Of a stretch of DNA of 45,939 nucleotides, positions 12,101-30,214 are shown piece after piece (position 1 is the stretch's first letter; the number at the start of each line of letters is the position of its first letter). The stretch comes from a virus. The stretch spans positions 1 to 45,939 of IMG/VR virus record IMGVR_UViG_3300020417_000958. One strand, written 5' to 3'. The notes beneath the pieces are model-generated. The model saw only the letters and a program-made list of their open reading frames with translations, did no database searches and had not been told where the DNA came from. Made by a program: the position numbers and the translations under genes.

Positions 12101-12259
12101 CTTGAAAACTTCTGGGATAATGAAATAAATAATTATTTAGAAAGAAAAGAAAAAACAGGATATAATTCTTATCTTGATTTAGAAAATGCATACAAAGAAG
12201 TTGCAGATGATATATCAGTGGAAGAATTTATTGAGAACAGTGTAAGATGTAAATTTTAA
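110..12259 (+). CDS. Giant virion RNA polymerase-type protein with zincin-like motif (4,049 aa)
   Basis: Probably packaged in the virion and injected to transcribe early genes, as shown for the crAss-like phage phi14:2 polymerase. The key signature is DFDID at residues 3052-3056, preceded by R3013-x-P and followed by K-I-Y-L-H. This parallels the beta-prime layout NRxPT...ADFDGDQMAVH, whose aspartates bind catalytic magnesium. The polymerase core therefore lies around residues 2900-3200. A second motif, HEAFH at 1594-1598 with an acidic helix EEFYEEYMAD near 1656-1665, looks like an HExxH zinc metallopeptidase. The N-terminus has a hydrophobic segment near residues 60-75 and an Ala/Gly-rich stretch near 150-230. 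Residues near 3850-3960 look beta-rich. The protein is about twice the length of the phi14:2 enzyme. The ATG at 110 is probably an internal Met, see the broken 5' extension. The stop at 12259 lies 2 nt before the next giant gene. The polymerase assignment is strong and the protease role is inferred. Confidence 0.82.
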   Translation: MRAVNLALSESKMESALVVNEQIGRNLGALQGATGEYTDEDFRKAQANAADAGFSTLMWNWPLIYVTNNMILRTAFRGFNTTRLGKILNDTGGLHKNIRQTRPLKDAATGGLAKNIFEDVSSKGWKNTLGIPSAKKIGTWTAGGTTLAGAHGAARYFAYNIAEGGQEVYQEAVAVGAKDYYSQILEDPQAGDWNTLWASMHEGASSQMTGQGFETFMSGFLMGGLVRGPQKILFETLPGLIQQKARPGEYADYQKTRDDYVDKLVKVYNDKWNEFVDIGDFQFNPHKKAQAVMRQAADGMNAAELKQDPLGFYDEKDFIKFSQAYRLFETGGSPFFASAIGDIGNNLTDEELIQAFPMHEKDIKSGKYRDRLKETVQEINDMQDRFTLHNDKFKNKYDPNKFKPGTVAHTRESARWAGYEQARYLYLFAEESFKRALERTNKIYEGLATEPVFQDNSKIAANDIQVLAEGRSIQEEMILLAQEVEMLKETKGDNRKEIASKKKKMKALANYFDILTAKENQTKDGKRFSRTPANIKKLRKVFLEYVDVLAEEKGTYTNVNNIDASLRNLIDLSVLKDRSRAYERAVRFLADPSELDRLSDNMQNQFLFIFNNQIKYYKNSVKNKIAKQERAVLLRAFANLGVLPIPEEAEAFILSGDVSVLKTFQSKEGVITEESNPELYQAIQEKIENYRKLYNKNVEKPAEKKEDTQEQQPDPDFESARLDQQEDFDKASRDGQPLPAINTDIISEEEAIVLNRLYDKYAQGSTDEVLSEDEWLELTKTKRQYNAIKKLFDRYKADIKNIDDINKIPTFNQWFTKNRGENSIKSILALGGASSLQPSDFLPKEQKIEPKQLPSNQKRIKAGFNKDINLVRIKTTDQEGNEVAIYELQDNQGAILSDGILQRAGVENTSYVSIREGENAFNKVIKTIDSDVAFNFDGIELKYGDRIVDDKGQQYMVLGTPKNIQDGNSLLVKVLGTNKEQTLPEVGFSTNYKLDTRTFKQRLSPEKTTLTRIKSGELTHIYPDKDNTNSIRDVIKDPKFDINKLTFKISLNPARKESNFQIGNELKANPYIWKRGDKYNVEMIYDNKAIGYVSNDQYRIAFNNKPLDLNKPLSSLQFVFDINDKAKIENQYGSDKEFVRILDNLYTAGKSTVTSQELQNEGVYFSVNDDRIVYNAPPKSLDQYSYNTYDGSRLIITVRREKTTKKLIVEHVSDLQADNIAESQVLFEKALQDLDDNTNFNIQKPGYYAIINKPNGKVGVLSLDIKSDKATLDEVFSKIKDKSKDLLSNNVEKGKAKDKAAAEEFNKDLSNDIFVSSKPGSYTKLFLNALGDLILEARVDGNKQSVKVSAQELDEGKDMNELIKRMNEKSSFKFSTNNFKSNISKEAEIDEIVAKTQSTTDFVAPPVNRQMRYYVQSDVLETGRSAEVAQPKSTEVDLKAVEKFDVESAESLAPADLRVQELKEAKLNVEKIKKEVWASAKAEGISRMKALKDSKEYQEAVKKVEDIQKSFDTDAYKILQDLPSVETEKVDSFIRWAQENLPEFIGIKNINELGERLKNNGTTVGAFVMALNGLSNGMDIKGTIYVGSAGFRYHEAFHAVFRLLLTKAEQKQYYDIAKKELRAKLRREGKDFEQELQKFKNTSALYMSFSRARLLEEFYEEYMADEFEKFKKNPRSSTAGGFIKSFFTRLINWIKTVLGTFTKNELQTLFENIDAGKYKNATNLASNMFTDEMVLHDASVGISTTAHKILPTKEKVDEAGRVTYEYLDANDASFVIDSMMSRTLALNDMDSEMSLLEIEAQVYDEYVDLYDPDNTKYDELDAVQRQKVIDISNALAFVENGIPSVSLGVRERIDTLNLKIDKQAEIDEVFEYDLGLRSTDVFDKDQSTIGGATALPMKVRAYMATTLLEETDVFGNKFLIDPIYDEQGKIINEGVRLIVPVDVDTVYNGVLKAVQNKETAYDILSSLYAYRNNGPHTKAFVDRLFNDMGIDGEVLIESGSLPPYVHNSAFAMQVIKSFQNARINYLFVQTVQGRTIFYSAATRDASKSQLDQWQLAYDNRRSKMKADKQFNSKVQVILKKTLGRLQATRTKLDNVRFDNEARQLATEINETLGIQLSPEYLKVSMLAAKPDNIVNKTKIQQKLLDDFGKIRTLTVEDVSAIKDIILADGNLYSKESGAESRLRGIAIGNAQLDENVGASTHTNANGDMVVSHQMPTFHTKMLRKMNEVDFLEELEARFPDNPLIKSEAFRQMSIEGRHEVLRLSGFRKGGKVRFDEELNEVISDGTKQAEVSRTYGDQSPKEFIENLISLYTYYYNTNKQENKTYSGQAISPVLIRVMEASDTGDMAALPISKTVELEKGKLKISQDTLDIFYKQIQNEYDRIVRESNEDTKTQDIIEDYNDTPNGRAYKLFNTRAILPDEVVQLLEGFAKQGKPFAEAAALSTGKTNIFSVLRTQLGNEFNTFFTELKEMAPNKDITKIVPDIIVNGSQNEIADQQLNLLYNNVNHNLAQIYFNDKINTFAINELLLGDESLTLKDAVDQAKRAKGQNGAIRSVEIPFTDPMLGITHKLKNIDLYAFKDPTFKKRAGGPQDQTDAQVYYTEKGFRYFQFGIGNLTQSYADVLDLVKDGKKVPAKYVDTYAAKANAMNSKKFVYFDGQTYMKMSIVPLTKEFTSIKDENGQYTIPKANKVELHNLRVKMEEYEQANESVVVSGGTTALKMLKKNIHTADKAFGFNSIDREDVSKLEARFMGLQQVTPSNKSEATVGTQMRVLITAEQDLKEDVIVDGKKQPMKDVVDQYNKNIIDKLQGLFNKYETLLYPKGIEGPADLYTYLKSAQRNLKAGKYSSNIIDMFSVDDNGAMKYGTHAPFVIRDAERALLSMFNKTVDEKVPGTSATLMSDYGIKIYRKVYSLDSDGVPLEQEVIRENIIHKNGTVVDLDISEDQNIDVLRKEIEASNGKGVIVLDRLRSDMVDKDGLKYSEFVMPAMSASIARLLEDTNMPIPEFLSKVYGVRIPSQDKHSALNLRLVDFMPSYMGSTGVFAREILERSGADFDIDKIYLHMKELYEKNGKFYEYGKQGFDDYIQYVGDAINSGKPNAFKDAFEKFMLGSKKSDKIKQKDAITGALTQLNLPTTKEEFDKYEGPSLYPGANNNKDLELKYAMLGNKKITESLTPGGTPIIAEEAGLDRLKSVRAYMEEVVPEWAQKTADTTLDVNSLLGKFYSYKNNKEGAGNIGLAVKPNLAYSLLREYDIKLNGLAKFVINKKTATKFETMVDNKQGGKDRIASVFDELVSANVDNAKERLVSKLGLNRNNLPIAGAALAVGIPIDDVVLFINSPIFEEDTYQDKRDPYLFEQSGIPKITTTEILKTYSPEFNTLPKNQQAKIKRNMIDIRQRLGAISAQARNLGVLMNYMRGFGKDFGASLYQDRQIAQLFGGTKKAAKASFIINAAEDSFIVSNLKLAERFSEIAEKILPRFNSEFKKHFLQRILPQMSPFVVENKGEYVDQVALDYLAYRLISLYKDNLNNSPSKLAGTLSNSMIYGNSNTESVIDVVERLRKTDPEKSNYFLNNFVQTVSYDNEQNNDGLNKAVTNTFARLTDNQKIKVQNGFAMLYGNSSTRTDAVKLLHYIIVKDGLQFNTASLLQALSPYIIETFLDKTTNIFTNPVSAFDAVQFARNYFKSASAQKYLQQEFDSLAKPFGKKSIRDGVEYRLVPREKVLVETSEAMIPDEIRLYIRINNQLFEYDNMDYDGVADEVPYKLIPIEGSIAQNPIGFMFNDANFSRPAYKDIAKYNKTTDQISLEEFQEMQGITKAFETGSNVTANENGYTIEDAIGISEKAIEGYTIPTEQTEVVKETPKKGDIVTLEFYFEKENKITPVKVTIENITEIEQGGAIITDNKGNVIKEEPGTIEYELTLVSNKGRKYEVTVGRDGNITQFLGKNNKLKIGTDNYIPEFDLKSQPTQQNFEQADLEEQKPMAKSRVKELLKASQEVKDNKKLENFWDNEINNYLERKEKTGYNSYLDLENAYKEVADDISVEEFIENSVRCKF

Positions 12260-15200: not shown

Positions 15201-17973
15201 TGTAGAAAAATTTGGTAAACAATATAATGACAAAGCAGAAGAGTTACGTAATGAATTATTTCATGCAAACGGAGATTGGAAAAGATATATTCAAACAGAA
15301 GATATTAATACACCATTAACACAAGAAGAAATACAGTATAATATAGAACTTTGGAATGCAAAACAAGCTAATGCTGCATTTATGAGAGCTGAAACAAAAG
15401 ATGAAAATAATAATGCTGTAGACGGAGAGTTTCATAGATATACAGATGAATTTAAAAAAATAAGAGATAAGTATCAAATATTTATACCTGTAGGAAATCA
15501 TGGGTTCTGGAGAATGAGAAGTGGTATAAGCCAAGAACAAACAGAAGAGTATTATTTAAAATATTATGATACTAGAGAAGTTGAAACAATGATAATGCTT
15601 GAAGGAAAACCTACAGGTAAAACAAGATTTCAAACACTTAGATTTCCTAAGAAAAAGTTTGTTGAGAAAAGAGAGGTCTCATCCAATGGTGTTAACATGC
15701 TTAGTGATAAATATGTAAAACTAATGAATCCAACAACTGAATTAGGCAGAGCAGAAAAAGATTTTTATGAAGCATACATGGAACTCAGTGATAAGATGAT
15801 GAAAAAATTACCATTAGATGTAAGAGATAGGATGCTTGGGTTTGCACCACTTGTAAAAGGTAAGATGGTAAAGGATGCAAAAAGCAAAGGCATGTTTGGT
15901 CTTGTAAGAGATATAACTAAATACTTTGGAGATGAAGTTAAGGATGTTTTAACAGAAACCACATCATTCAGACGTGTACAAACAGATGAATATGGTAACA
16001 TGATTGACTCAATACCAATAATGTTTGTAGGTAGACCAAGAACACAAAAAGCTGTTCAAGAAATAAATGATAAACTAGAAGAGCTTGAAGCACGAAGAGT
16101 AGCACGTAAAGTAACAGGAGAAGTATATCAAAAACAAAAATCTTTTCTTGAATCAGAAAAAAGAGCAATATTAGGCAAACCTGAAGCATCAGAAATAAGC
16201 ATGGATCTTGCTGACAGTATTATTAAATTCAGCAGTATGGCTACGATTTATGAACAGATGACTGATATTGAAGATACGCTACTTGGTTTAAAGAAAATTG
16301 TTGACAGAAGACAATATGTAGATACTAAAAAAGGTATTGTTAGATATGCAAGAAATTTAAAAGATACAATTGTAGGTAAGAAAGGTAGTAAATCACAAGA
16401 AGAAGCTAATACAAAAAAGAGATTATCAGCTTGGTTTAGTATGGTGTTTTATAATAGTGATGAAATGACTAGAAGTATAGCTGACAAACTTACAAGTTCA
16501 TTAATAGGTATTTCTTCTTTAACATATGTAGCATTTAACGCTATTGGTAACTTAAACAACTTAGCAATAGCATCTGTAAATAATGCAATAGAAGGTATGG
16601 GACAAAGATTTTTTAGTCTTGACTCTTATAAAAGAGCAAACAAAGCATTTTATGCAGATGGTGGAGGTGTAACAGTAGCTTTATTTAGTAGGTTAGCATA
16701 TAAAACATCTAGTAAGAATGGAAGATATGATCCTGATTTAGCAATGAATAAATGGGAAGCTATGGCTCAGCATATGTTTATGATGGATGCTTATGCTGAC
16801 ATACGTGAAGCAACGCAAGGTCAAGGTGCTATGACAGAAGGTTTCTTAACTATACCTGGATTTTATGAAAAATTTAAAAGATTTGGTTATTCATTACAGG
16901 ATGCAGCAGAATATAAAGTACAAACTACTGTTGGTATGGCAATACTAATGGATACGTTGATGGAAAATAGCAAAACAGGAGAGCAGTTAAGTTTTTATGA
17001 TGCTCATGATTATGATGCTAAAACTCAGACAGTAAAATTAAAAGAAGGCTTTGATACTATTATAACTAAAACTGTTAATAAAAAAGAGATAAAGAAATTA
17101 TATGATATAAATGAAAGAGCTGATTTAAGAAATAATATTAGAGAAGCAAACAAGCAGATACACGGTAACTATGCTAGAGAAGACAGGGTTTTACTGCAAA
17201 GACATAATATTGGTCAGTTATTATTCCAGTTTAAAAAATGGTTAGCTCCTGCTATTAGAGCAAGATTCCAAGGTGAATACTATGATGAAAACTTAGGTTG
17301 GATGGAAGGAAGATACGTATCTACTTACAAGTTTTTAGGATATCTAGCAGGGCAATTAAAAAACCTAAACTTCAAAGCTATGAACTTTAAATCCTACAGA
17401 GATGAAGTGTTTGGTAAAAAGTCTGGCTCAACAGAGCAAGAGAATGAAAGAATACAAAACAAAATTTTTGGTATTAAAAGAACAGCTGCTGATCTAGCAA
17501 TGATTATAGCAACTTGGGGTATATACCAATTACTACTTACTGGATTTGAAGATGAAGATGATGACATGGATCCAACTTTAAGGAAACTAAGAAACTTAGC
17601 TATATACCAAGCAAATAGAACATACAAAGAACTTTCTATGTTTATGCCTATCCTTCCGGGTGCATATACACAAATGTCACAGTTTACTAGTGATCCTATA
17701 GCATCTACAAGAAACCTAGGGCAAATAGGAGAAATGTTAAGTACAGGTTTATATACGGGATATAGATTTGGATATGCTGCAATTGATGGTTTAGATGGTG
17801 TAACAGAAAGAGAATACAGAGAACTGATGAAAGACTCTGATTTATTCTATCAATATAAGCCTAGAAAAGGTAAACTTAAGTTCTGGAAAGAAGCAGCAGA
17901 TATTATACCAGGTATATATACAATACAAAAGTTTAATGGATTTTTAAGAAGACAAGACTTTTATATAGACTAG
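12262..17973 (+). CDS. Second giant virion-type protein with PD-(D/E)XK nuclease domain (1,903 aa)
   Basis: This gene starts 2 nt after the RNA polymerase gene and is surely co-transcribed with it. In crAss-like phages several giant genes lie together and their products enter the virion. A nuclease domain of the Cas4/RecB type is visible around residues 510-660: G545-T-A-D548, then D562-L-K564-T, then Q607-x-x-x-Y611. Nearer the N-terminus EELLHPF (226-232) sits in a context resembling a zincin helix but lacks the first His of HExxH, so it may be a decayed peptidase. Long Lys/Glu-rich helical stretches fill the middle. Hydrophobic segments lie near 1415-1435 and 1745-1760, the latter followed by an acidic run. 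The role of a nuclease here is unknown; host DNA attack at entry or genome processing are guesses. Confidence 0.72.
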   Translation: MACFNKNTAEYKALQEEFKKDSIVDAKIMAWQRVNNSDVIPSVDQVQQGQRDKQVMYSTTKRNFSAALIGNLNRLKLVTKKYKGSHYVNTTNGEQFFASQEILKDNIRKIYKYLAVNNIPSDAININRTTKSAIITVNEDMFSVADVIPAKRPENTTRTLSVVEHLERLFPQVTVNIATVSEAKEYYDSLPKDEKAKIKFADIKSYYQNGKAVLIQGRVTDETAIEELLHPFVDAAKTENPELFDNLLKESKLNFPVLKQEIDDAYSNKNGFKQVHRDLELVTQAMTRHFQKEYEDKPTKSFLDRIVDFLRWFGNLINDLHKYVTEKQKPVFQLSQANPNLKLSEIAQILNTTDISFKFNYKVDNVVRYSLSNKKQKIVNRVKDVMSANPLQKKIIDKLFHIADKQADEIDSLSANPEDITYGNSIVILNKEQGKHEYVDISTGEIYTSATTAINGVMQNREEVAESLAVGNDFDSVVEAVITGVPVDELFAELQAVPESKLKNDKARLESIYDDIHQKTMLAYMDGTVFIPQVVVYDRATKIAGTADIVGITTKGEIRIIDLKTSRTAYISKNKEQYKREWDLADDSKLKQAGVNRMSTLAKHGLQVNMYRRMFENMGYKVEQGPYSAQTFHIHVDMEGKGKNTKWKGTYRFDGLMQHPPLPNNSNLDKLIPKNPDIIAKEKIEFETKNSDTYNPFNTPDESLPDDEFASPIQEDTRYKGIKSAVENYQKHLVDRAKALEQYKKQLFVDKTNPEALDYINNTLATILVSLDPLRTDQAVVQSKVFVDLIRMAIKEMDTFIAYVNDPKNLQDKNFITYINNFDNFAKSYEALNDLGADLLNKNELRLINQLQTKLKKVRGTNYLPGLIDTALEDWAVQTIKQESNLEYTEAELRQLIKKAEDTNFLDLNTRDMATSPDTILAVIDKLYKRSKIRAQIVQREEVQTIRTLGNRLTRLAGTNDPTIVFKNLHEDPINKPGKLVEKFGKQYNDKAEELRNELFHANGDWKRYIQTEDINTPLTQEEIQYNIELWNAKQANAAFMRAETKDENNNAVDGEFHRYTDEFKKIRDKYQIFIPVGNHGFWRMRSGISQEQTEEYYLKYYDTREVETMIMLEGKPTGKTRFQTLRFPKKKFVEKREVSSNGVNMLSDKYVKLMNPTTELGRAEKDFYEAYMELSDKMMKKLPLDVRDRMLGFAPLVKGKMVKDAKSKGMFGLVRDITKYFGDEVKDVLTETTSFRRVQTDEYGNMIDSIPIMFVGRPRTQKAVQEINDKLEELEARRVARKVTGEVYQKQKSFLESEKRAILGKPEASEISMDLADSIIKFSSMATIYEQMTDIEDTLLGLKKIVDRRQYVDTKKGIVRYARNLKDTIVGKKGSKSQEEANTKKRLSAWFSMVFYNSDEMTRSIADKLTSSLIGISSLTYVAFNAIGNLNNLAIASVNNAIEGMGQRFFSLDSYKRANKAFYADGGGVTVALFSRLAYKTSSKNGRYDPDLAMNKWEAMAQHMFMMDAYADIREATQGQGAMTEGFLTIPGFYEKFKRFGYSLQDAAEYKVQTTVGMAILMDTLMENSKTGEQLSFYDAHDYDAKTQTVKLKEGFDTIITKTVNKKEIKKLYDINERADLRNNIREANKQIHGNYAREDRVLLQRHNIGQLLFQFKKWLAPAIRARFQGEYYDENLGWMEGRYVSTYKFLGYLAGQLKNLNFKAMNFKSYRDEVFGKKSGSTEQENERIQNKIFGIKRTAADLAMIIATWGIYQLLLTGFEDEDDDMDPTLRKLRNLAIYQANRTYKELSMFMPILPGAYTQMSQFTSDPIASTRNLGQIGEMLSTGLYTGYRFGYAAIDGLDGVTEREYRELMKDSDLFYQYKPRKGKLKFWKEAADIIPGIYTIQKFNGFLRRQDFYID

Positions 17974-18051
17974 TCATCTTTAAATAGGCGGTACATTATA
18001 TACCAACCTATAAGAAATATAGCTATAGCCTGTATATAATCTATTAAAATA

Positions 18052-18387
18052 TTATTTATTATCTCTAGCGTTAGCAATCTCAAGTTCTTTAACTGTTGCT
18101 CTAAGCTTTTCTACTTCTTTCTGTAAGTATTCAATTCTTAGATCTTGCTTAGCATCATCAGGTAGTGCACCCATTTCTCCACGTGGCCATTTAACTCTAA
18201 ACTCATGGTTGAGTTCAACATCATCTTGCATTCTAATAACATCAAGTTGTAGCTGAGAGATCTCTGCGGTTAGACTAAACCATACACCAGCAATAGATAT
18301 AATACCTAGTACCATACCAATAAGAGCTTTTATATCTAGTTGTACTTTAGATTCTTCTGTTAGTGTATTTTTTTCTTTTTTATCCAT
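18052..18387 (-). CDS. Inner-membrane coiled-coil protein, i-spanin-like
   Basis: A 111-residue protein with a charged N-terminus, one hydrophobic segment (about residues 19-41), and then a long charged heptad-type region. This is the topology of an inner-membrane spanin subunit or other single-pass envelope protein. It is the last gene of the minus-strand envelope cassette and follows a lipoprotein gene with a 3-nt gap, the usual neighbour of an i-spanin. The TM region is clearly homologous to the protein at 19784-20068: both show K-V-x-L-D-x-K-x-L, then G-x-W-F-x-L-x-A-x-I. The spanin assignment rests on topology and context only. A structural or anchoring role in the host membrane is equally possible. 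Confidence 0.55.
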   Translation of the reverse strand: MDKKEKNTLTEESKVQLDIKALIGMVLGIISIAGVWFSLTAEISQLQLDVIRMQDDVELNHEFRVKWPRGEMGALPDDAKQDLRIEYLQKEVEKLRATVKELEIANARDNK

Positions 18388-18390
18388 ATG

Positions 18391-18822
18391 TTAGTTGTTC
18401 TTTTTTGGGTTATTTACTGCTGGGTTTGGTGGGGGTGTAACAACAGCTGGGCTAGAAACGTTAGGACCTGATCCATTATTGATAGGTATATTTGGTATGT
18501 TTATATTGTTATTAGGTTTATATACAGGTTTAGGTATATTATAGTAATGTGGGTGATAGTATGGATTATTCCATCTATTATAATATCCAGAAGGTACATG
18601 ATACCAATCATATCCCACTACATTATATATTACATTTGGTTTAATATCTTTAATAGGTATTTTTAACGTATCACCTTCTTTTGACAAAGCAAGTACATGA
18701 GTTATTTCAGGACCTTTACTTTGATAGTAATAGGGTGAACAACTACACATACCTAATAACATAATACATATCATTATAGTTAGTGTTATTACTCTACCTT
18801 TGTCTCTTTGTGAATCTGTCAT
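18391..18822 (-). CDS. Pro/Asn/Tyr-rich lipoprotein, possible o-spanin
   Basis: A 143-residue protein with an N-terminal hydrophobic segment (residues 12-28) ending in a lipobox-like LLGMCSC, so a lipoprotein is likely. The mature part is rich in Pro, Asn and Tyr, with a YYHPHYY-type run followed by repetitive Asn-Ile-Pro stretches near residues 105-120. Low-complexity Pro-rich lipoproteins next to a TM/coiled-coil gene are typical of outer-membrane spanins, and the next gene (18052-18387) has that partner topology. It is 4 nt from the upstream lipoprotein gene. I do not recognise a named family; the spanin role is inferred. Confidence 0.55.
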   Translation of the reverse strand: MTDSQRDKGRVITLTIMICIMLLGMCSCSPYYYQSKGPEITHVLALSKEGDTLKIPIKDIKPNVIYNVVGYDWYHVPSGYYNRWNNPYYHPHYYNIPKPVYKPNNNINIPNIPINNGSGPNVSSPAVVTPPPNPAVNNPKKNN

Positions 18823-18826
18823 TTAT

Positions 18827-19372
18827 TTAGTTAATTAAGTAACCATAAGGAGTAGCTTCTATATCTGTTCCTATAGGCATGTTTTCTAGTTTGAATTCTG
18901 CTACTTGTACTTGCTCAATGTAAGGATTGTAAAACTCACCGCTTCCTTCTAAATTTATTTTACCATCAACTACTAGTTGTACATCAACATAAGCCCAGTT
19001 AACATAATCATTTTCTCCTATGATTTCTAATCCAGCTAGTTTATCATCTGTACCTTCATGATCATACATACCAGTATCTAATAAATCATCATCCATATCA
19101 CCTTCTAAATCATAAGTGAATAATGCAAAATGTTGTCTATCTAATCTAGGAGGGCCATCATCTATTTGTAGATAAAGCACAAAAATCTTTCTTCTAAAGC
19201 CATCAACATCTTTGACAGCTCCAAATGTATTGACAACAGAATATCTTTCATAAGGATCAAACGCAACCCCATCTAATGATATTTCAAAAACCACTTCTGA
19301 TTCAGGGATGACCTCTTCCTTTTCACATCCTAATATTAGAAGTAAACCAAATAATAATAATAATTTTTTCAT
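18827..19372 (-). CDS. Predicted exported lipoprotein, function unknown
   Basis: A 181-residue protein beginning MKKLLLLFGLLLILGC, a textbook type II signal with the lipidated Cys at residue 16, followed by an acidic stretch. The Glu/Asp-rich start after the lipid Cys resembles Bacteroidota lipoprotein export signals for surface display, which suggests exposure on the cell surface. The mature chain alternates hydrophobic and polar residues and looks beta-rich, and it is acidic overall. No enzyme motif is visible. It lies between the thioredoxin-like gene and a second lipoprotein, so it probably acts with the exported products around it. Confidence 0.6.
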   Translation of the reverse strand: MKKLLLLFGLLLILGCEKEEVIPESEVVFEISLDGVAFDPYERYSVVNTFGAVKDVDGFRRKIFVLYLQIDDGPPRLDRQHFALFTYDLEGDMDDDLLDTGMYDHEGTDDKLAGLEIIGENDYVNWAYVDVQLVVDGKINLEGSGEFYNPYIEQVQVAEFKLENMPIGTDIEATPYGYLIN

Positions 19373-19382
19373 TGTATTAAAT

Positions 19383-19781
19383 TTAAAACTGAGAAGCTGT
19401 TTTTGCTTCTTCTATTGCTTCATTCAACTCTATTAGAGTTACAGGACATTCTAAATCTAGTCCCGCTTTCCAAACAACTTCTTTAAATCCATCTTTAAAA
19501 AGAATAATTGTTGGAGCCATACGCACCTTGTATTTCTTTTTGGCTTCTGGTGCTTTGCTAATATCTACTCTGACATAAGGTATATCTACAGAATTCCAAT
19601 CAGAGAAAGCATTTGCATCATTAAACTTTGCCCAAAATTCTACTACAATAAGTGGCTCATTATCTGCATATGCACTTTTACCACTTATTATTTCACTTAT
19701 GTTTGAGTCATCTGCCCAGTCTTGAGACAATGCCATTGTAGGCAGTAGTATCATTACTAGTAATATAAAATTTTTTAACAT
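19383..19781 (-). CDS. Exported thioredoxin-fold protein lacking the CxxC
   Basis: A 132-residue protein with a signal peptide (cleavage likely after ALS at residue 19) and a thioredoxin-like core. The strand IVVEFWA (45-51), the loop where WCGPC should lie, and M-A-P90-T with the conserved cis-proline all match the fold. The two redox cysteines are replaced by Asn54 and Asn57, so disulphide exchange is not expected. Such proteins usually bind peptides or act as structural adaptors. It begins 2 nt from the TM/coiled-coil gene at 19784 and precedes two lipoproteins in the same direction. A periplasmic binding or chaperone role in the envelope cassette is inferred. Confidence 0.65.
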   Translation of the reverse strand: MLKNFILLVMILLPTMALSQDWADDSNISEIISGKSAYADNEPLIVVEFWAKFNDANAFSDWNSVDIPYVRVDISKAPEAKKKYKVRMAPTIILFKDGFKEVVWKAGLDLECPVTLIELNEAIEEAKTASQF

Positions 19782-19783
19782 GA

Positions 19784-20068
19784 TTATCTTTTTTGCTGCA
19801 ACTCATATAAACGCTCATCCATCTTCTCTAACGTTTCTTTTATTTCTTCCACATCATCCTGAGTATCAATTATTGTTTGTCTTATAAGTTCATCTTTCAG
19901 ATCATACTCAACTCTATCTATCACAGGAGCTGGTAGTTCTTTTGCTAAAGCTATATCAGCCTGTAAAGCAAACCACATACCAACCATTGCAGCTATACCT
20001 ACGGCTATTGTGCCTAGTGTTTTTAAGTCTAATGTTACTTTAGTATCTTCACCTATCTGTTTTGCCAT
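19784..20068 (-). CDS. Inner-membrane coiled-coil protein, paralog of the 18052-18387 product
   Basis: A 94-residue protein with a single hydrophobic segment (about 17-36) followed by an acidic coiled-coil region (residues 50-92). Its first 45 residues share the pattern K-V-x-L-D-x-K-x-L, a Gly-rich TM and W-F-x-L-x-A-x-I with the product of 18052-18387, so the two arose by duplication within this cassette. The N-terminus is likely cytoplasmic and the coiled coil periplasmic. It starts 11 nt after the outer-membrane barrel gene. A spanin-like or scaffold role is possible. Confidence 0.6.
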   Translation of the reverse strand: MAKQIGEDTKVTLDLKTLGTIAVGIAAMVGMWFALQADIALAKELPAPVIDRVEYDLKDELIRQTIIDTQDDVEEIKETLEKMDERLYELQQKR

Positions 20069-20079
20069 GTTTTCTATGT

Positions 20080-21312
20080 TTATTTAAATGAAAAATTAAG
20101 TCCTACACTGCCTTGGAATAACTCACTATCCCATAGCTTTGCATATTCTCCTTCAAAAAATACTCCTAGTTGTTTACTAAGTTTCCAACCAAAGTTCACA
20201 CCAGCAGAGTAATCATCCCATTGTTCATGTTCTGAATCTTCTACCAATCCACCTTTACCCCAGTTGTTTCTATTTAAATAACTGTAATCTTCATCACCTG
20301 AAACATATTTGTGATAAGGTAGTATGTAGTTACCATATGCATGTAACCAAAAATTATTTTGATAATGATAGAAATCAAATCCTACAATAGGTGCTACCTC
20401 ACCAAATGCATCTATTAGATCCCATTGTTCATTATTATATCTGTTTATTAAATCTCTAAATACTGTATTACGGAAGTCTATATCAGAGTAAGCTACAATT
20501 CTATCTTCTGGATCTTTCCATATCCAGTCATATCTTTCTTCACCTGTGTTTACATCTACATATTGAGTATAGTGATCTGTATATCCATACTCATATCCTA
20601 AGCTATACCAAGGGTTTGCAGGATATTCTACAACTTCTCCTGTTTGTGGATTAGTCCATGTCTCTGTTTCATTTAACCATATTTCAATTGGGTTATATCC
20701 ATAAGCACGCTCATGAGTACGGTAGATAGCACCGGCTGATATACTAAACTTTTTACCAATAGGAAGTCTAGCTCTAACTTCTGCAGATTTGTAGTCAAGA
20801 TTTATTTTTCCAACTTGTCTTGACTCAGCTTTTATAATGTGATACTTACCTGTCCACTTAACAAAGAACCTGTGGTTGTCAAATACTTCTCCTCTACTTC
20901 TTTCTTTACCTACATCAAACTGGTATTCTAATCCTGATAATGCTGAGCTAGGTGCAGTAAATGCCAGTTGTTGTTCTGTACCATCATACCATTCTCTTGG
21001 CTTTCTTTCATATTGGAAACGTGCAAGTTTTCTAATACCAAAACTATATCTGTAATCAAACTCATAGTATTCAGTTACATCTATAACACGCGGTATAGAA
21101 TAGAGATCACCGTCTGCAGGTCTCTCTACAAAGTAGTCTTTTCTTTCTGATTCATACGGGCTACGGAGATCACCAGCAGCATAAACTGTCCCGTATTTTA
21201 TGAAGTCTTTATATAATGCTTTAAAAAATCTACCTTTTTCTTTTGAATCTTCCTGAGAGAAGACAGGTAGAGTAAATAGTAATGTTAATATAAGTAGTAT
21301 TGTCTTTTTCAT
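20080..21312 (-). CDS. Predicted outer-membrane beta-barrel protein
   Basis: A 410-residue protein with a clear signal peptide (MKKTILLILTLLFTLPVFSQ; cleavage after about residue 19). It has many alternating aromatic/polar strands of the kind seen in outer-membrane barrels, such as YSFGIRKLARFQYE and LGYEYGYTDHYTQYV. The C-terminus ends in F-S-F-K after G-S-V-G-L-N, close to the aromatic beta-signal read by the barrel assembly machine. No enzymatic motif is visible. A phage-encoded outer-membrane protein could block secondary infection by masking receptors, alter permeability, or aid release. It is the largest member of the envelope cassette and follows the DUF2279-like gene by 5 nt. Confidence 0.7.
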   Translation of the reverse strand: MKKTILLILTLLFTLPVFSQEDSKEKGRFFKALYKDFIKYGTVYAAGDLRSPYESERKDYFVERPADGDLYSIPRVIDVTEYYEFDYRYSFGIRKLARFQYERKPREWYDGTEQQLAFTAPSSALSGLEYQFDVGKERSRGEVFDNHRFFVKWTGKYHIIKAESRQVGKINLDYKSAEVRARLPIGKKFSISAGAIYRTHERAYGYNPIEIWLNETETWTNPQTGEVVEYPANPWYSLGYEYGYTDHYTQYVDVNTGEERYDWIWKDPEDRIVAYSDIDFRNTVFRDLINRYNNEQWDLIDAFGEVAPIVGFDFYHYQNNFWLHAYGNYILPYHKYVSGDEDYSYLNRNNWGKGGLVEDSEHEQWDDYSAGVNFGWKLSKQLGVFFEGEYAKLWDSELFQGSVGLNFSFK

Positions 21313-21317
21313 ATTAA

Positions 21318-21647
21318 TTATTTTTTTCTGTTTCTTTTCTTGTCAAACAAATTAATAGTGAGAGAGATTGAAACACTACCTAAAGCAGTTGCAAGTAAAT
21401 CTTTACCATCAAATCTATTTCCTGGTTGTGAAGCATCTAATGTTTCTTTTGCAACACCTGCAAGTAAGCCTGCACCAATACCACATAACAAGGCTTTATT
21501 AGGATCCTTAAGTTTTTTCTTAGCAAATACATATGTAAGTCCACTTATAGTAGAACCAGCAATAAAATGTTTTTGCTTATCTTTTTGGATTTGACCTTGG
21601 AGAATATGAGATACCATCATAAATAATAAAAATATACAAGTTTTCAA
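21318..21647 (-). CDS. Small exported DUF2279/YfiM-like protein
   Basis: A 109-residue protein with a signal-like N-terminus, then D-K-Q-K-H-F-I-A-G (residues 23-31), a Gly-rich hydrophobic middle, K-E-x-x-D-A, and F-D-G-K-D-L-L-A-T-A-L-G. This layout matches the DUF2279/YfiM-type periplasmic proteins common in Bacteroidota. The chosen start is TTG at 21647: it gives an N-terminal Lys and a proper signal peptide, whereas the first ATG would remove the charged part. It is the first gene of the envelope cassette and has the TTTTTGTATATTA element about 59 nt upstream. The function of the family is not established. Confidence 0.6.
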   Translation of the reverse strand: MKTCIFLLFMMVSHILQGQIQKDKQKHFIAGSTISGLTYVFAKKKLKDPNKALLCGIGAGLLAGVAKETLDASQPGNRFDGKDLLATALGSVSISLTINLFDKKRNRKK

Positions 21648-21738: not shown

Positions 21739-23364
21739 TTATCCCTCACAACTTGCACATTCTAGTATATTTCTGGAGAATGCTTGAGCAGAGCTCTGAC
21801 TAAACTGATAATACAAAGTCTTAACCCCTAGTTCCCAAGCACTTAGATATAATTGATTTATATCTTTTGCAGGAACGCTTGGATGTATCATTAAATTAAG
21901 TGACTGAGATTGATCTATATACTTTTGTCTTTGAGATGCTTGTATAATTATTTCTTTTGGTGAGATTTCTATGAATGATTTAAACACAGCTTTACTTGGA
22001 AAATCTAGATGCTGAACTGACCCATCTTTCTTTAGTATACTTTCCCAAGTATCATCATTATCTAAATCATATTTTTTTAACTCTTCTTTTAAGAAAGGAT
22101 TTTTATAAATGGTTTTAGTTTTAGCTAAATCTTTAATAAAGTAATTAGATTTTATTGGCTCAATACCCATAGATACTGCACCATGTATAAAACTACTTGA
22201 TTTTGTGGGAGCTATAGCCATCAATGTAGTGTTTGCATATCCTTCTCTAATACACTCATAACCTTTTTCATTAGCTAAATACTTAGATGCATTTTGTGCT
22301 GTTTCATTTAAATATTTAAATATCTGAGAGTTTAAACTTTTAGCTTCCATTGACTCAAACTCAACAAGTTTAGATTGTAATAAACTATGGTATCCTAACA
22401 CACCTAAACCTATAGCTCTGTGTTTCTTAGCAAATGTATAAGCTCTTTTAAGGCCAGCTTTTACTTCAGCTTTTTTAATAAACTCATCCATAACAGCATT
22501 TAAAAAGAATACATATGTTTCTACAGCATCTGTTTTAATAATATCATCCCAGTGTAATAAATTTATAGATCCTAAACAGCACACAAATGAATTGTAACTA
22601 TCTGTTGGAAGTTGTATTTCTGAACATAAATTAGATGCAGTTATATCTAAACCTAGATCTTTATAAGGAGAATTGTTATTGCTGTTATCTTTAAACATTA
22701 TATAAGGAAAACCAAACTCATTTCTTCTTTGTATTACTTTGGCCCACAGCTGACGTTTTTCATTATCACCTTCTTTCATTTCATTTAACCATTGGTCAGT
22801 TACTGTAATACCATATTGTAAGTTTTGTATTGGATTTCCCTCAGTTCCAATATCTAAAAAGTCTGCGGCATCAGGATGTTCAAGTGGTAAATATACAGCA
22901 CAAGCACCTCTTCTTGCCTCAGATTGTTTACATACATCTACAACAGTATCATAAATTTTAGCATAATGAACAGGACCATCAGCCAGACCTCCGGTTGATA
23001 TAGTAGATCCTCTTGGTCTAATGTTGCCTAAGTAAGCGCTTGTACCACCACCATATTTAGACATCATGCCTATTTCTCTGCCTGCGTTTAGTATACTATC
23101 TAAGTTATCATCTATGTTAGATCCATAACAACTTATAGGTAATCCTTTTTGTTTACCAAAGTTTATCCACACTGGTGTAGAAAGACTATAATAACCTAAT
23201 GACATATAATGCTCAAACTTTTGTGCAAAGCCTGGCATTTGTAAATACTTTTCTGCTGTATTTGCTATATCTTTAATCCTTTGTTCTGGTTCTTCTGATA
23301 TATATCCTCTTGATAAAAACTTGCGGCTATCTTCATTAAGCCAATAATACTTACTAAACTCCAT
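21739..23364 (-). CDS. nrdA: Class I ribonucleoside-diphosphate reductase, large subunit
   Basis: Reduces ribonucleotides to deoxyribonucleotides with the radical supplied by NrdB. The expected catalytic residues are visible: P-I-S-C79-Y-G (first redox Cys), N245-L-C247-S-E249 (thiyl radical Cys and Glu), C262/C263 in the partner redox position, a PTKSSS phosphate loop, the tyrosine pair Y518-Y519 that relays the radical, and the C-terminal E-C536-A-S-C539 reductant shuttle. At 541 residues it is much shorter than cellular NrdA (about 760). It begins directly at the catalytic region and has no N-terminal ATP-cone, so dATP feedback control is probably absent. It is coupled to nrdB by a one-base TAATG overlap. 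Confidence 0.95.
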   Translation of the reverse strand: MEFSKYYWLNEDSRKFLSRGYISEEPEQRIKDIANTAEKYLQMPGFAQKFEHYMSLGYYSLSTPVWINFGKQKGLPISCYGSNIDDNLDSILNAGREIGMMSKYGGGTSAYLGNIRPRGSTISTGGLADGPVHYAKIYDTVVDVCKQSEARRGACAVYLPLEHPDAADFLDIGTEGNPIQNLQYGITVTDQWLNEMKEGDNEKRQLWAKVIQRRNEFGFPYIMFKDNSNNNSPYKDLGLDITASNLCSEIQLPTDSYNSFVCCLGSINLLHWDDIIKTDAVETYVFFLNAVMDEFIKKAEVKAGLKRAYTFAKKHRAIGLGVLGYHSLLQSKLVEFESMEAKSLNSQIFKYLNETAQNASKYLANEKGYECIREGYANTTLMAIAPTKSSSFIHGAVSMGIEPIKSNYFIKDLAKTKTIYKNPFLKEELKKYDLDNDDTWESILKKDGSVQHLDFPSKAVFKSFIEISPKEIIIQASQRQKYIDQSQSLNLMIHPSVPAKDINQLYLSAWELGVKTLYYQFSQSSAQAFSRNILECASCEG

Positions 23365-24344
23365 TAAAATAAATCATTTACTGTTATACTTTTACTCTTT
23401 TTATTATAATCAATTTGTTTCTTATAAAAGAAGTCTCCCTCTTTTGTAGATTTCATTTCTACCTCAAACCACTTGGTTTCTTTTAACATATCTTTATCTA
23501 CGTCAAACATAGGTGACATTTTAATTTTCTTAAGTGAATTATTAAATCTGTTTTTGATAAAGTTTTTTATAACATCTTTTGGTAAAAAAGTTAATTCACC
23601 TGATTCAAAAATCCAGTCAAGTATATCACACTCAGCAATATAAGCTTTATTGCATGCAGAGTAAATTAAATTATCAAAGTCTTCATCAAACCATTCTGGG
23701 TTTTCTTTTTTTATAATATTAATAATTTCAGCACCAAAGTTACCATGTATATCTTCTTCTTTACTTGTAGCTTCAACCACATTAGAAATACCTTTTAGTA
23801 TACTTCTCTCTTTATTAAAAGACATCATTATCAAGAACTGGCTAAATAAGCTTACGTGTTCTATAAATAAAGAAAACAATAGTACAGACTTAGTATACAT
23901 TTTATCATCTCTACTTCTTGAACCATCTAAATATTTCTTTAAGTATTTTATTCTTCCTTTGATAGCAGGTATCTCTACTACATTTTTAAATTCATTTTCT
24001 AAACCTAGTATTCTTAATAGTCTTGCATATGCATCTTTATGTCTAACCTCAGACTCTGCAAATGTAAAACCTACATCTCCTATCTCTGTAATAGGCATAC
24101 GCTTATACAGGTCACCCCAAAAAGTTTTTACATTAACTTCTATTTGTGCAATTGCAAGCATAGTTTTTTTAATTACATCACGTTCTTGATCTGTAATATT
24201 TACTTTAAAGTCTTGTATGTCTTCAGTAAAGTTAAATTCTGTGTCTATCCAATATGAATGACGGATAGCATCTTTATAAGCAAGTAATTGAGGATACTCA
24301 TAAGGGAGTATATTTGTTCTAGGTTGAAAAATGTTTTTATTCAT
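23364..24344 (-). CDS. nrdB: Class I ribonucleotide reductase, small (radical-generating) subunit
   Basis: A ferritin-like di-metal protein that makes the tyrosyl radical used by NrdA. Metal ligands and the radical Tyr follow the class Ia pattern: E69, E99-x-x-H102-x-x-x-Y106 (the same spacing as E115/H118/Y122 in E. coli), E162 in F-I-E-H, and E197-x-x-H200. The C-terminal tail, ending in a hydrophobic D-L-F, should dock to the large subunit. Length (326 aa) is normal. It is the first gene of the reductase pair and lies downstream of a minus-strand terminator at 24371-24405, so it probably has its own start or depends on read-through. With nrdA it supplies dNTPs for phage replication. Confidence 0.95.
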   Translation of the reverse strand: MNKNIFQPRTNILPYEYPQLLAYKDAIRHSYWIDTEFNFTEDIQDFKVNITDQERDVIKKTMLAIAQIEVNVKTFWGDLYKRMPITEIGDVGFTFAESEVRHKDAYARLLRILGLENEFKNVVEIPAIKGRIKYLKKYLDGSRSRDDKMYTKSVLLFSLFIEHVSLFSQFLIMMSFNKERSILKGISNVVEATSKEEDIHGNFGAEIINIIKKENPEWFDEDFDNLIYSACNKAYIAECDILDWIFESGELTFLPKDVIKNFIKNRFNNSLKKIKMSPMFDVDKDMLKETKWFEVEMKSTKEGDFFYKKQIDYNKKSKSITVNDLF

Positions 24345-24664: not shown

Positions 24665-24747
24665 TTTTTTGTATATTAATAATAGGACAGTGTCCGTAAA
24701 CAAATATAATGTTAATTGTATTAACGACATAATTTTTGTATATTAAT
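24665..24747 (+). promoter_or_regulatory. Divergent control region with a 15-bp direct repeat
   Basis: The 117-nt gap between divergent genes holds TTTTTGTATATTAAT twice in direct orientation, at 24666-24680 and 24733-24747. The second copy ends 24 nt before the ATG at 24772, a reasonable promoter position for the plus-strand small-gene operon. The first copy is about 91 nt from that ATG. The same 13-base core recurs before the envelope cassette. The two copies may be tandem promoters of a phage polymerase or binding sites of a regulator. Confidence 0.5.
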
Positions 24748-24771
24748 TATATAACCAATAACAAATTAATT

Positions 24772-25023
24772 ATGTTTAAGAAAATTTTAAGTGGCATTTG
24801 GAACTTCTCTTTAAAAAAAGGGTGGAACTGGCTATGGTCAAAAACAGATATTGACGAGAAAGCAGTAGAGACCGCTAAGGAGATACAAAGAAGATTTAAG
24901 TTAACTGCACAAGAACTTGCAGATGTAGCAGATGCTATTAAAGAAGTTGGCAACCAGGTAGGTGATCTTGATGACGCTGTATCAGGTGGCAAACGTAGAG
25001 GTAGACCAAAAAAGAATGGCTAG
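24772..25023 (+). CDS. Small protein with C-terminal AT-hook-like motif
   Basis: An 83-residue protein. The N-terminus (residues 1-26) is Trp/Lys-rich and amphipathic (several Trp within WNFSLKKGWNWLW), the middle is an acidic helix, and the C-terminus is K-R-R-G-R-P-K-K, which matches the core of an AT-hook that inserts into the minor groove of AT-rich DNA. ATG 24772 is chosen because the earlier in-frame ATG lies inside the promoter repeat and adds no sensible residues. It is the first gene of the plus-strand operon and its end overlaps the next gene by 8 nt. DNA or membrane binding is inferred. Confidence 0.6.
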   Translation: MFKKILSGIWNFSLKKGWNWLWSKTDIDEKAVETAKEIQRRFKLTAQELADVADAIKEVGNQVGDLDDAVSGGKRRGRPKKNG

Positions 25024-26032: not shown

Positions 26033-26233
26033 ATGCCAGCAAAGAAAAAGAAAAAAAGTACAGTAAACGCATCTGGTAATTATACAAAGCCAACTATGCG
26101 TAAAAGATTGTTTAACCAAATCAAAGCCGGAAGCAAAGGTGGTAGACCAGGACAGTGGTCAGCACGAAAAGCACAACTTTTAGCTAAGAAGTATAAAGCT
26201 GCTGGTGGAGGTTACAGAGGAAAAAAGAAATAA
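26033..26233 (+). CDS. Small basic protein with GGRPGQWSARKAQLLA motif
   Basis: A 66-residue protein starting M-P-A-K-K-K-K-K. The central G-G-R-P-G-Q-W-S-A-R-K-A-Q-L-L-A followed by K-K-Y-K-A-A-G-G-G-Y is a motif I associate with conserved small proteins of phages and environmental sequences, though I cannot name the family with certainty. Its strong positive charge suggests nucleic-acid binding or virion packing. The TAA overlaps the ATG of the next gene (TAATG). Confidence 0.6.
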   Translation: MPAKKKKKSTVNASGNYTKPTMRKRLFNQIKAGSKGGRPGQWSARKAQLLAKKYKAAGGGYRGKKK

Positions 26234-26691
26234 TGTCTAAACCTAAGAAAAAATTTAAAGACACTAAAGTTGGACAGTTCTTGTCACAAAAAGTACCTAG
26301 TATATTAGGGGTTGTGGGAGATGTTTTGCCTGACGCAGGTGTATTTGGTGTAGTAAAAGGATTAATTTCAAATGATCCGGCTTTACCACCAGAAGATAAA
26401 GAAAAAGCAATGAAGCTTTTAGAACTTGATATGATAGAAATGCAAGAAGTAAGTAAACGTTGGGAATCAGATATGAAGTCTGACTCTTGGCTCAGTAAGA
26501 ATACTAGACCTATGAGTTTAATATTTCTGACATTATCTATGGTTTTATTAATTTTATTAGATAGTTTTGAATGGAGTTTTAATGTATCACCTGGTTGGGT
26601 AGATCTATTGCAGACTCTTTTAGTTACTGTCTATGTAGCATATTTTGGTTCTAGAGGAGCTGAAAAGTTTCAAACAATTAAAAATAAATAA
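26233..26691 (+). CDS. Three-TM holin-like protein
   Basis: A 152-residue protein whose last 60 residues hold two or three hydrophobic segments (about 98-112, 120-140). The helix before them contains the W-E-S-D-M-K-S-D-S-W-L-S-K-N-T-R-P-M-S pattern typical of three-TM holins such as the GTA-release type. Holins form pores in the inner membrane to time lysis. The N-terminal third is Lys-rich with a Gly/Val stretch. No endolysin is visible in the window, so the partner enzyme must lie elsewhere. Starts at a TAATG junction. Confidence 0.55.
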   Translation: MSKPKKKFKDTKVGQFLSQKVPSILGVVGDVLPDAGVFGVVKGLISNDPALPPEDKEKAMKLLELDMIEMQEVSKRWESDMKSDSWLSKNTRPMSLIFLTLSMVLLILLDSFEWSFNVSPGWVDLLQTLLVTVYVAYFGSRGAEKFQTIKNK

Positions 26692-26692
26692 T

Positions 26693-27049
26693 ATGTTAAA
26701 GGATAAAGAACTAAGAGGATATATAGGTGCTGCCACAGTATTTTTACTTGTGATGGGATTACTATTATTTTTAGCATTCTTTGAAATACCAGATACTAAC
26801 AATGATATATTCAAAGTTATTGTAGGTATGCTTGTTGGTTCACTATCAGTTGTTATCTATACATTCATAGGTAAGAACCCGGAAGAGGTAGAAGCACTAA
26901 AAGCAAAGAATGAAGCCTTAGAAGATAAAGTATCTGCTATGGTTGTAGAAAAAGATAAGTTAGAAGCACTACTAAGAGATCTCCAAACAGAGGTAATTGA
27001 TAAGTTATCTATAACAGGGGAGAAGTTTGAGTTTAAAAAAACTAAGTAA
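26693..27049 (+). CDS. Membrane protein with two TM segments and a coiled coil
   Basis: A 118-residue protein from ATG 26693 (a longer TTG-started frame back to 26645 would run inside the holin gene and is rejected). Hydrophobic segments at about 10-30 and 38-58 are followed by an acidic heptad-type coiled coil (residues 62-100). The layout suits a membrane-anchored assembly or lysis protein. It starts 1 nt after the holin-like gene and overlaps the next by TAATG. No family recognised. Confidence 0.55.
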   Translation: MLKDKELRGYIGAATVFLLVMGLLLFLAFFEIPDTNNDIFKVIVGMLVGSLSVVIYTFIGKNPEEVEALKAKNEALEDKVSAMVVEKDKLEALLRDLQTEVIDKLSITGEKFEFKKTK

Positions 27050-29184: not shown

Positions 29185-29379
29185 TTAACAGTTATTTATG
29201 CAAGAACTATCCCAACCATCCTTTTCTGCATAACATGAGTTCATATATGTTGTACCATCTGGTGTACATACCGGTTCATATATCTCTATACATGTAGTAC
29301 CTTTTGTGTACTCACCTTTAATACAATCCCCATCTTTTTGACAGGATAATAATAAAAACATAATTAATAACTTTCTCAT
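29185..29379 (-). CDS. Kazal-type protease-inhibitor-like lipoprotein
   Basis: A 64-residue protein. MRKLLIMFLLLSC is a type II signal with the lipid Cys at residue 13. The rest holds six Cys (19, 30, 38, 49, 60, 64) in the Kazal layout: C30-I-E-I-Y-E-P-V-C38, then x-x-D-G-T-T-Y-x-N-x-C49. Ten residues separate the third and fourth family cysteines, as in Kazal domains. Kazal domains block serine proteases by presenting a rigid loop before the P-V-C turn. The protein would sit on the host envelope. It is the final gene of the minus operon, 1 nt after the radical SAM gene. Confidence 0.7.
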   Translation of the reverse strand: MRKLLIMFLLLSCQKDGDCIKGEYTKGTTCIEIYEPVCTPDGTTYMNSCYAEKDGWDSSCINNC

Positions 29380-29380
29380 T

Positions 29381-30214
29381 TTAAAATATATATCTAATTG
29401 TTTCTAGTGGAAAATATTTCTTGTATATCTCTTTAAACTCCATCAATAATCTACCTTTGTGTTTAATTGGGTATCTCATAACACCACTATGATTTTTAAT
29501 CTCATTAGATCTTCTCATAAGTTCTTGTGCTTCTGGTGAAGCCTTAGCCATTTGATTTTTATGGTTAGTTAATGCAATTACCTCACACTTATTTACGCCA
29601 GCTATTTCTTTTACAACAGCAAATAACGTATTATATTCTTCTTTCCATCCCGGATAGAATACGAGTGGACTATAATTACAGTGCACTTCCCATCCCAAAT
29701 CTTTTAGACGATTGATATCTACAATACGACTAGCTATTTTCTGCATCTTAGGTTCAAGTATGTCTGAATACTTCTGAGGCATCAAGCTTACCCTTACTCT
29801 TGGTTTCTTATTAAAGTGTCTCACATCTAGTTTCAATAGTGACGGATACTTTGTTGCCATTGTAGTGTTGAGTTGTGGATGGTCATCATATCTCTTTAGG
29901 TAGTCATGCAATGATTCAGGCATATGCCTCTGCATCAATACTAAGTCTGTGTTACATGCAATATCTACCATAGTATATATAGGGTCTTGTTGGTCTGGTG
30001 TTTTGTAGTATGATTTTTCCCAACTTACAACAGAATTAAATATCTGTTCTATGTTTTGGTTTACATACACTCTACGCCCATTATAACGAGACATATAACA
30101 ATAAGTGTCTACACAGCCACCCATGCAACCATAGATTACATTAGGGGCTATGCAGTTTGCACTATTGTTATTGGGTTTTGTTGTAAGAGTTTTTGTTACT
30201 TGTTTTACTATCAT
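29381..30214 (-). CDS. Radical SAM protein, spore-photoproduct-lyase-like, with unusual cysteine spacing
   Basis: A 277-residue protein. Y-G-C30-M-G-G-C34-V-D-T-Y-C39-Y looks like the 4Fe-4S site of a radical SAM enzyme, but the spacing is CX3CX4C and not the usual CX3CX2C. The following pattern (T-D-L near 89-91, then R-V-R-V-S-L-M-P) and the size resemble the spore photoproduct lyase branch, which splits thymine dimers in DNA. A DNA-repair or base-modification reaction is therefore possible but not proven. The start overlaps the upstream DUF5664-like gene by 47 nt; no later Met keeps the cluster. Confidence 0.6.
   Translation of the reverse strand: MIVKQVTKTLTTKPNNNSANCIAPNVIYGCMGGCVDTYCYMSRYNGRRVYVNQNIEQIFNSVVSWEKSYYKTPDQQDPIYTMVDIACNTDLVLMQRHMPESLHDYLKRYDDHPQLNTTMATKYPSLLKLDVRHFNKKPRVRVSLMPQKYSDILEPKMQKIASRIVDINRLKDLGWEVHCNYSPLVFYPGWKEEYNTLFAVVKEIAGVNKCEVIALTNHKNQMAKASPEAQELMRRSNEIKNHSGVMRYPIKHKGRLLMEFKEIYKKYFPLETIRYIF

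Follow-up and report, generated by a model that had tools for sequence, protein, structure and literature searches.

A conserved phage module of an outer-membrane barrel, a membrane-anchored helical protein and a thioredoxin fold, with a putative role in host lysis

What does a phage do with seven adjoining genes whose products all appear to be destined for the cell envelope? The question is raised by IMGVR_UViG_3300020417_000958, a viral record of IMG/VR that was analysed over its whole 45,939 bp (hereafter the window) and is probably a fragment of a phage genome. A first-pass annotation had described seven open reading frames (ORFs) in one direction, spaced 2–11 nt apart, and had offered lysis, superinfection exclusion or envelope remodelling as their function. 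We find that three of the genes, encoding an outer-membrane β-barrel (OMB), a membrane protein with a helical domain (CC2) and a secreted thioredoxin fold (TRX), form a core present in hundreds of uncultured, mostly marine phages in IMG/VR. This trio usually stands beside lysis genes and therefore probably represents an undescribed way to open the outer membrane. The cassette consists of the following genes:

18052–18387, minus strand: CC1, a paralogue of CC2 with a K-WPRG-MG motif; accessory
18391–18822, minus strand: PRO, a proline/tyrosine-rich lipoprotein; accessory
18827–19372, minus strand: LPP, a 181-aa lipoprotein; accessory
19383–19781, minus strand: TRX, a secreted thioredoxin fold without CXXC; core
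19784–20068, minus strand: CC2, an N-terminal transmembrane (TM) segment followed by a helical/coiled-coil domain; core
20080–21312, minus strand: OMB, a 410-aa outer-membrane β-barrel; core
21318–21647, minus strand: GLY, a small secreted YfiM-like protein with a TTG start; accessory

The layout is exactly as first described, the gaps from CC1 to GLY being 3, 4, 10, 2, 11 and 5 nt, and hydropathy and sequence reveal a signal peptide, a lipobox or a TM segment in all seven products, in line with the claim that each is exported or membrane-bound. Relatives differ from the cassette genes mostly at third codon positions (differences by codon position of 39/25/120 for OMB and 8/1/41 for LPP against the related locus L003, and 12/6/43 for CC2 against L004), and the ORFs are therefore coding. 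A further 37-aa ORF with a TTG start and one hydrophobic stretch (17970–18083, minus strand), which overlaps the end of CC1 and was compared with L002 only, may be an eighth membrane peptide.

Is the cassette a unit or an accident of one genome? An OMB search gave 29 related viral loci in IMG/VR, and an OMB profile search of the same database gave at least 370 relatives, of which 80 were kept. Loci with enough flanking sequence were examined by six-frame profile searches, and a non-redundant set was made by discarding OMBs that shared 90% identity or more. In all 71/71 flanked OMB-seeded loci (49/49 non-redundant), TRX and a CC protein were encoded on one strand with OMB, all three within 2.5 kb. 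The trio was likewise together in all 61 loci seeded from TRX and in 55 of the 57 flanked loci seeded from CC2, where TRX was beside CC2 in 57/57; the three seedings share contigs and are not independent samples. By sequence comparison the cassette is not a chance arrangement, because its core is conserved together in every OMB- and TRX-seeded locus and in nearly all of those seeded from CC2. Joint conservation in relatives had been proposed as a check in the first-pass annotation, and the core trio passes it. The seven-gene unit stood only in part, since the other genes are optional: near the core in the 49 non-redundant loci, LPP and GLY were each found in 11 and PRO in 8, and CC1 is also optional.

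The core occurs in the orders OMB-CC2-TRX, CC2-TRX-OMB and CC2-TRX-OMB-CC2-TRX; in some cases LPP separates OMB from CC2. A CC2-TRX pair on both sides of OMB (CC2-TRX-OMB-CC2-TRX-M15, M15 being a peptidase described below) was seen in L043, L052, L058, L064 and L099, and this duplication of the pair around OMB suggests that CC2 and TRX work together. Contigs with the module range from under 10 to 213 kb, from crAss-like through jumbo phages, so many phage types share it; these phages, the crAss-like and jumbo types included, probably infect Bacteroidota. Among 50,697 named phage records, DNA and protein searches found no relative of OMB or TRX, and a divergent OMB and a CC2 relative used as queries against the same records found nothing; we can therefore name no cultured phage that carries the module. 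Foldseek, run against a viral library (BFVD), gave A0A516LKJ4, which is likely a distant relative of OMB (E 1.6e-23, 23% identity). A scan of bacterial and archaeal genomes gave 9 loci, all on contigs of metagenome-assembled genomes (MAGs), most with CC2-TRX and five also with M15. A cellular origin of the module was rejected: we treat the 9 loci as viral contigs that ended up in genome bins, and disregard the host labels attached to them.

What kinds of proteins make up the core? OMB has a signal peptide by hydropathy and sequence, and an alignment of 24 sequences has a mean column identity of 63%. Its AlphaFold model is a barrel of moderate confidence (pLDDT 71), for which the best solved match is Tsx (Z 14.8, 196 residues, 4.2 Å). 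Many other barrels score close to Tsx (EstA, Z 13.3; LpxR, 12.3; OMPLA, 11.1; Pla, 11.1), and therefore only the fold of OMB is known. The signal peptide, the barrel model and a C-terminus with an aromatic residue close by (...GLNFSFK) agree, at moderate confidence, with the outer-membrane barrel first proposed. Residues H158, H200, S176, S190 and D313 are invariant, and no sequence relation to Tsx, autotransporter or KdgM-type barrels was detected in Pfam, PHROGs, NCBIfam or the PDB.

CC2 has a single TM segment near its N-terminus and, after it, a charged helical domain, in which E54, K58, D59, R63 and D72 are fixed in 82/82 sequences; CC1 is built in the same way, and the two are thus the pair of membrane coiled coils that had been annotated. 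The topology of CC2 is probably N-in with the helix in the periplasm. TRX has a signal peptide, matches Pfam Thioredoxin (2e-6) and gives a model (pLDDT 83) that superimposes on thioredoxin A with Z 14.4 and a root-mean-square deviation of 1.8 Å over 96 residues, which bears out the annotated fold. The cis-Pro is kept in 86/86 sequences and CXXC is present in 0/86, conserved Asn residues being found at its position. Thioredoxin chemistry is impossible without the two CXXC cysteines; TRX is a thioredoxin by fold only, with no redox active site. Pfam, PHROGs, NCBIfam and PADLOC gave no function-bearing family match for OMB, CC2, LPP or PRO, and judged by such matches the module has nothing that bears on function except the thioredoxin fold and a weak likeness of GLY to YfiM.

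The neighbours of the core are more informative. Many loci hold an M15_3 peptidase (PF08291, 1e-15; endolysin family phrog_894, 8e-30). In all non-redundant loci that hold one (24/24), its gene is on the strand of the core and within 4 kb of it. The expectation for such proximity was 12.1/24 (P 2.5e-8 if the loci are independent); the M15 family itself came to notice through its position beside OMB. A count over all endolysins (34/35 loci) is partly circular, some of its seeds having come from downstream of OMB, and the M15-only count is the one relied on. The run CC2-TRX-OMB-M15-holin was found in 5 loci and CC2-TRX-OMB-CC2-TRX-M15 in 4; L105 reads CC2-TRX-OMB-(78 aa)-GLY-M15-holin, and the most divergent relative (35% identity) has M15-CC2-TRX-OMB. 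A holin with three TM segments (phrog_3427; PF11351) follows M15 in several loci. Where M15 is absent, the same slot is filled by PG_binding_1+Amidase_2 with a PF05105 holin after it, by Amidase_2 on its own, by a protein resembling phrog_33083 or by DUF5675, whose lytic role is no more than presumed. The window has its own probable holin, 5 kb from the cassette in a divergent operon:

26233–26691, plus strand: probable holin of the 3-TM type, phrog_3427 (5.5e-20)

Its homologue in L105 matches PF11351 GTA_holin_3TM (5.8e-5, just under the cut-off). Computed from coordinates, a holin lies 4.9–7.7 kb from OMB in 12/13 of the crAss-like records searched, the window included. No endolysin was recognised within the window, as expected of a fragment. 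A membrane protein with a long coiled coil is encoded at 26645–27049 (plus strand), overlapping the holin gene, and is possibly a further lysis or i-spanin-like protein. A conserved protein of about 80 aa with a basic tail (W-SKTTVDEKA...KGKARKGRKK; window 24736–25023, plus strand; L105:9161–9397) often stands between the core and M15 and has no family match.

This linkage points to a role of the module in lysis, and we lean, by a narrow balance of probability, towards reading the cassette as the outer-membrane-disruption arm of the phage lysis system, spanin-like, with a barrel in place of the lipoprotein. From the folds and the co-location we infer contacts, a collapse and a fusion of membranes as follows. 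The inner membrane would hold CC2 by its anchor, leaving the helix in the periplasm; TRX would serve as a binding adaptor and not as a redox enzyme; and the two, joined with OMB, would span the periplasm as a bridge that the peptidoglycan keeps apart. With the wall gone through the action of holin and endolysin, this bridge might collapse or oligomerise, pulling the two membranes together until they fuse and the outer membrane opens. A bolder version, which we put forward tentatively and consider rather less probable, is that OMB-CC2-TRX is a new class of trans-envelope lysis machine in many uncultured marine phages, in which the barrel takes the place of the o-spanin lipoprotein and the coupling in the periplasm comes from a redox-dead thioredoxin.

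Canonical spanins bridge the inner and outer membranes and act after removal of the wall (PMC9636201). Kongari et al. (2018) surveyed genomes of phages of Gram-negative hosts and could identify no spanin in about 13% of them (91 genomes), among them those of Bacteroides phage B124-14 and Croceibacter phages P2559S/Y, and named as an untested possibility that 'an OMP could act as an o-spanin', OMP being an outer-membrane protein (PMC6139136). The module is a concrete candidate for outer-membrane opening in phages that lack spanins and fits this slot. It provides three named proteins to test, and its recognition would improve the annotation of lysis regions in marine viromes. Searches of openly accessible papers turned up no phage lysis module containing a barrel or thioredoxin.

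One observation favours a barrel in the place of the lipoprotein: a pattern scan, which can miss some, found no same-strand lipobox gene within 6 kb in 27/49 loci. Several others weigh against a barrel-based lysis arm. In roughly half of the loci a lipoprotein (LPP, PRO or GLY) is nearby, and PRO or LPP could be an o-spanin of the usual kind, with OMB having another job. The conservation of OMB (63%) and of CC2 is above that usual for spanins. Two CC2-seeded contigs, which may be fragments, keep CC2-TRX without a detectable OMB. Finally, the crAss-like group, to which the window belongs, departs from the pattern: no M15 (PF08291) was found in the crAss-like parents, Amidase_2 is present in 9/12 of them and away from the core (in contig L002 the distance is about 36 kb), and the core adjoins ribonucleotide reductase genes instead.

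Which other functions could account for the same facts? Linkage to holin and endolysin, the highly conserved CC2 ectodomain and a non-redox thioredoxin fold suited to binding would also agree with a module that senses or regulates when lysis occurs (lysis inhibition), in which OMB or TRX senses superinfection or outer-membrane stress and CC2 signals to the holin. We regard this as unlikely, because the trio is invariant while the holin and endolysin families beside it are several and unrelated, which speaks for a general envelope job and not for the tuning of one holin, and because an outer-membrane barrel is a costly sensor. The invariant His, Ser and Asp residues of OMB, and the matches of its model to OMPLA, LpxR and Pla, could instead indicate an outer-membrane enzyme (a lipase- or protease-like barrel) that weakens the membrane at lysis after delivery or activation by CC2 and TRX. 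Transport and autotransporter barrels score equally or higher, however, no catalytic motif of OMPLA, LpxR or Pla was recognised and the model is of moderate confidence; we hold this to be the least probable of the alternatives.

Two further explanations take the module away from lysis. A barrel held by TRX and CC2 might mask or alter the cell surface against further phages (superinfection exclusion or receptor blocking); phage-encoded outer-membrane proteins with such a role exist (the Lc porin of PA-2 and the Cor and Llp lipoproteins), and in the window no endolysin adjoins the cassette. Genes for exclusion tend to be single and early and to be confined to particular lineages, whereas this trio is common to very different phages and stands beside lysis genes; PADLOC gave no match, which does not settle the point. 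We therefore think exclusion quite improbable. Very doubtful in our view is that the module serves host-envelope remodelling or uptake as cargo hitch-hiking in late operons. The crAss-like members, which have nrdA/nrdB beside the module in place of an endolysin, would agree with this, but the consistent same-strand proximity of M15 elsewhere does not, and cargo would be expected to have cellular relatives, where only the nine MAG contigs, most with the phage gene set, were found. None of these rivals has positive evidence as strong as that for opening of the outer membrane. Of the functions first offered, lysis is thus clearly favoured by gene neighbourhood, and there is no evidence here for exclusion.

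How, then, does the module compare with known systems? It shares with the two-component spanin (lambda Rz/Rz1) a type II inner-membrane protein with a periplasmic helical domain and the linkage to holin and endolysin, and the proline-rich lipoprotein Rz1 has a counterpart, PRO, in some loci. It differs in that its invariant outer-membrane partner is a β-barrel and not a lipoprotein, that a secreted thioredoxin fold is added, that its genes are separate and not nested, and that its sequences are highly conserved. CC2 and CC1 have the N-terminal TM domain and the helical domain, periplasmic if N-in, of an i-spanin; the spanin-like linkage to holin and endolysin is seen in all M15 loci and not for the crAss-like amidase. 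We do not file the module as a spanin, although it has the inner-membrane subunit and, in most lineages, the linkage. The unimolecular spanins (T1 gp11 type), annotated in several Flavobacteriia phages (PMC8776804), are alike in their place in the lysis region and in probable Bacteroidota hosts, whereas in the module the job would be split over three proteins, and none of OMB, CC2 and TRX combines an N-terminal lipobox with a C-terminal TM domain. TRX shares the fold and cis-Pro of TrxA and differs from it in being secreted and without CXXC; OMB has the barrel fold of Tsx, autotransporter and KdgM-type proteins, with no detected sequence relation to them.

Among the accessory proteins, CC1 clusters with CC2, matches phrog_20984 (4e-14) and has homologues in the Pelagibacter phages HTVC027P (gp15, E 2e-10) and HTVC121P (gp53, E 2e-6), in probable lysis regions; unlike the module, neither record has an OMB or TRX match. 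The HTVC027P homologue is two genes before an M15 peptidase; those of two autographivirids stand between tail fibre genes and maturase/terminase. The two lipoproteins of the first-pass annotation hold up. LPP, with lipobox LILGC, often directly follows OMB or TRX. PRO has a P/Y/N-rich tail and in the window an atypical lipobox (MCSC), whose cysteine aligns with clean lipoboxes of relatives. Clustering had limited PRO to the window and L002, which a profile search overturned by extending the family to 16 sequences, on the same strand as the core in the loci counted above; in L094 it lies between M15 and the holin, and it is a candidate o-spanin-like partner. GLY has a signal peptide, is a lipoprotein in some relatives and often stands just before the M15 endolysin (in L105, between OMB and M15). 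It had been called DUF2279-like; it matches phrog_26616 (8e-7) and has a weak likeness to the NCBIfam YfiM lipoprotein model (E 4e-7, 30 bits, below the cut-off of 117), but no Pfam DUF2279 match.

The surroundings of the cassette bear on the identity of the phage. Two giant ORFs lie downstream and convergent with it, and ribonucleotide reductase genes lie upstream:

110–12259, plus strand: ORF of 4049 aa
12262–17973, plus strand: ORF of 1903 aa, with weak local likeness to crAss-like RNA-polymerase-subunit proteins
21739–24344, minus strand: nrdA/nrdB

Residues ~1540–1800 of the 1903-aa ORF resemble RNA-polymerase-subunit proteins of crAss-like phages (best E 6e-13); on this evidence the phage resembles the crAss-like group and probably infects a member of the Bacteroidota. 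The 4049-aa ORF has no near DNA match among phages. The nrdA/nrdB genes that adjoin the module in the window, L005, L007, L009 and L016 fall into two sequence classes (nrdA ~82% versus ~39% identical to that of the window) and stand in either orientation beside an unchanged core trio, so that ribonucleotide reductase genes have apparently been swapped next to the module. A sigma-70 promoter scan gave a site count not above that of shuffled sequences. Farther along the minus strand, 29185–29379 encodes a 64-aa lipoprotein-like product that contains a protease inhibitor domain of the Kazal type (PF00050, 3e-5, over the cut-off), which is unusual for a phage. A spore-photoproduct-lyase-like protein (29381–30214, minus strand; PF20903, 2e-18) adjoins an ORF at 30168–30581 (minus strand) with a dATP/dGTP diphosphohydrolase N-terminal domain (4e-10).

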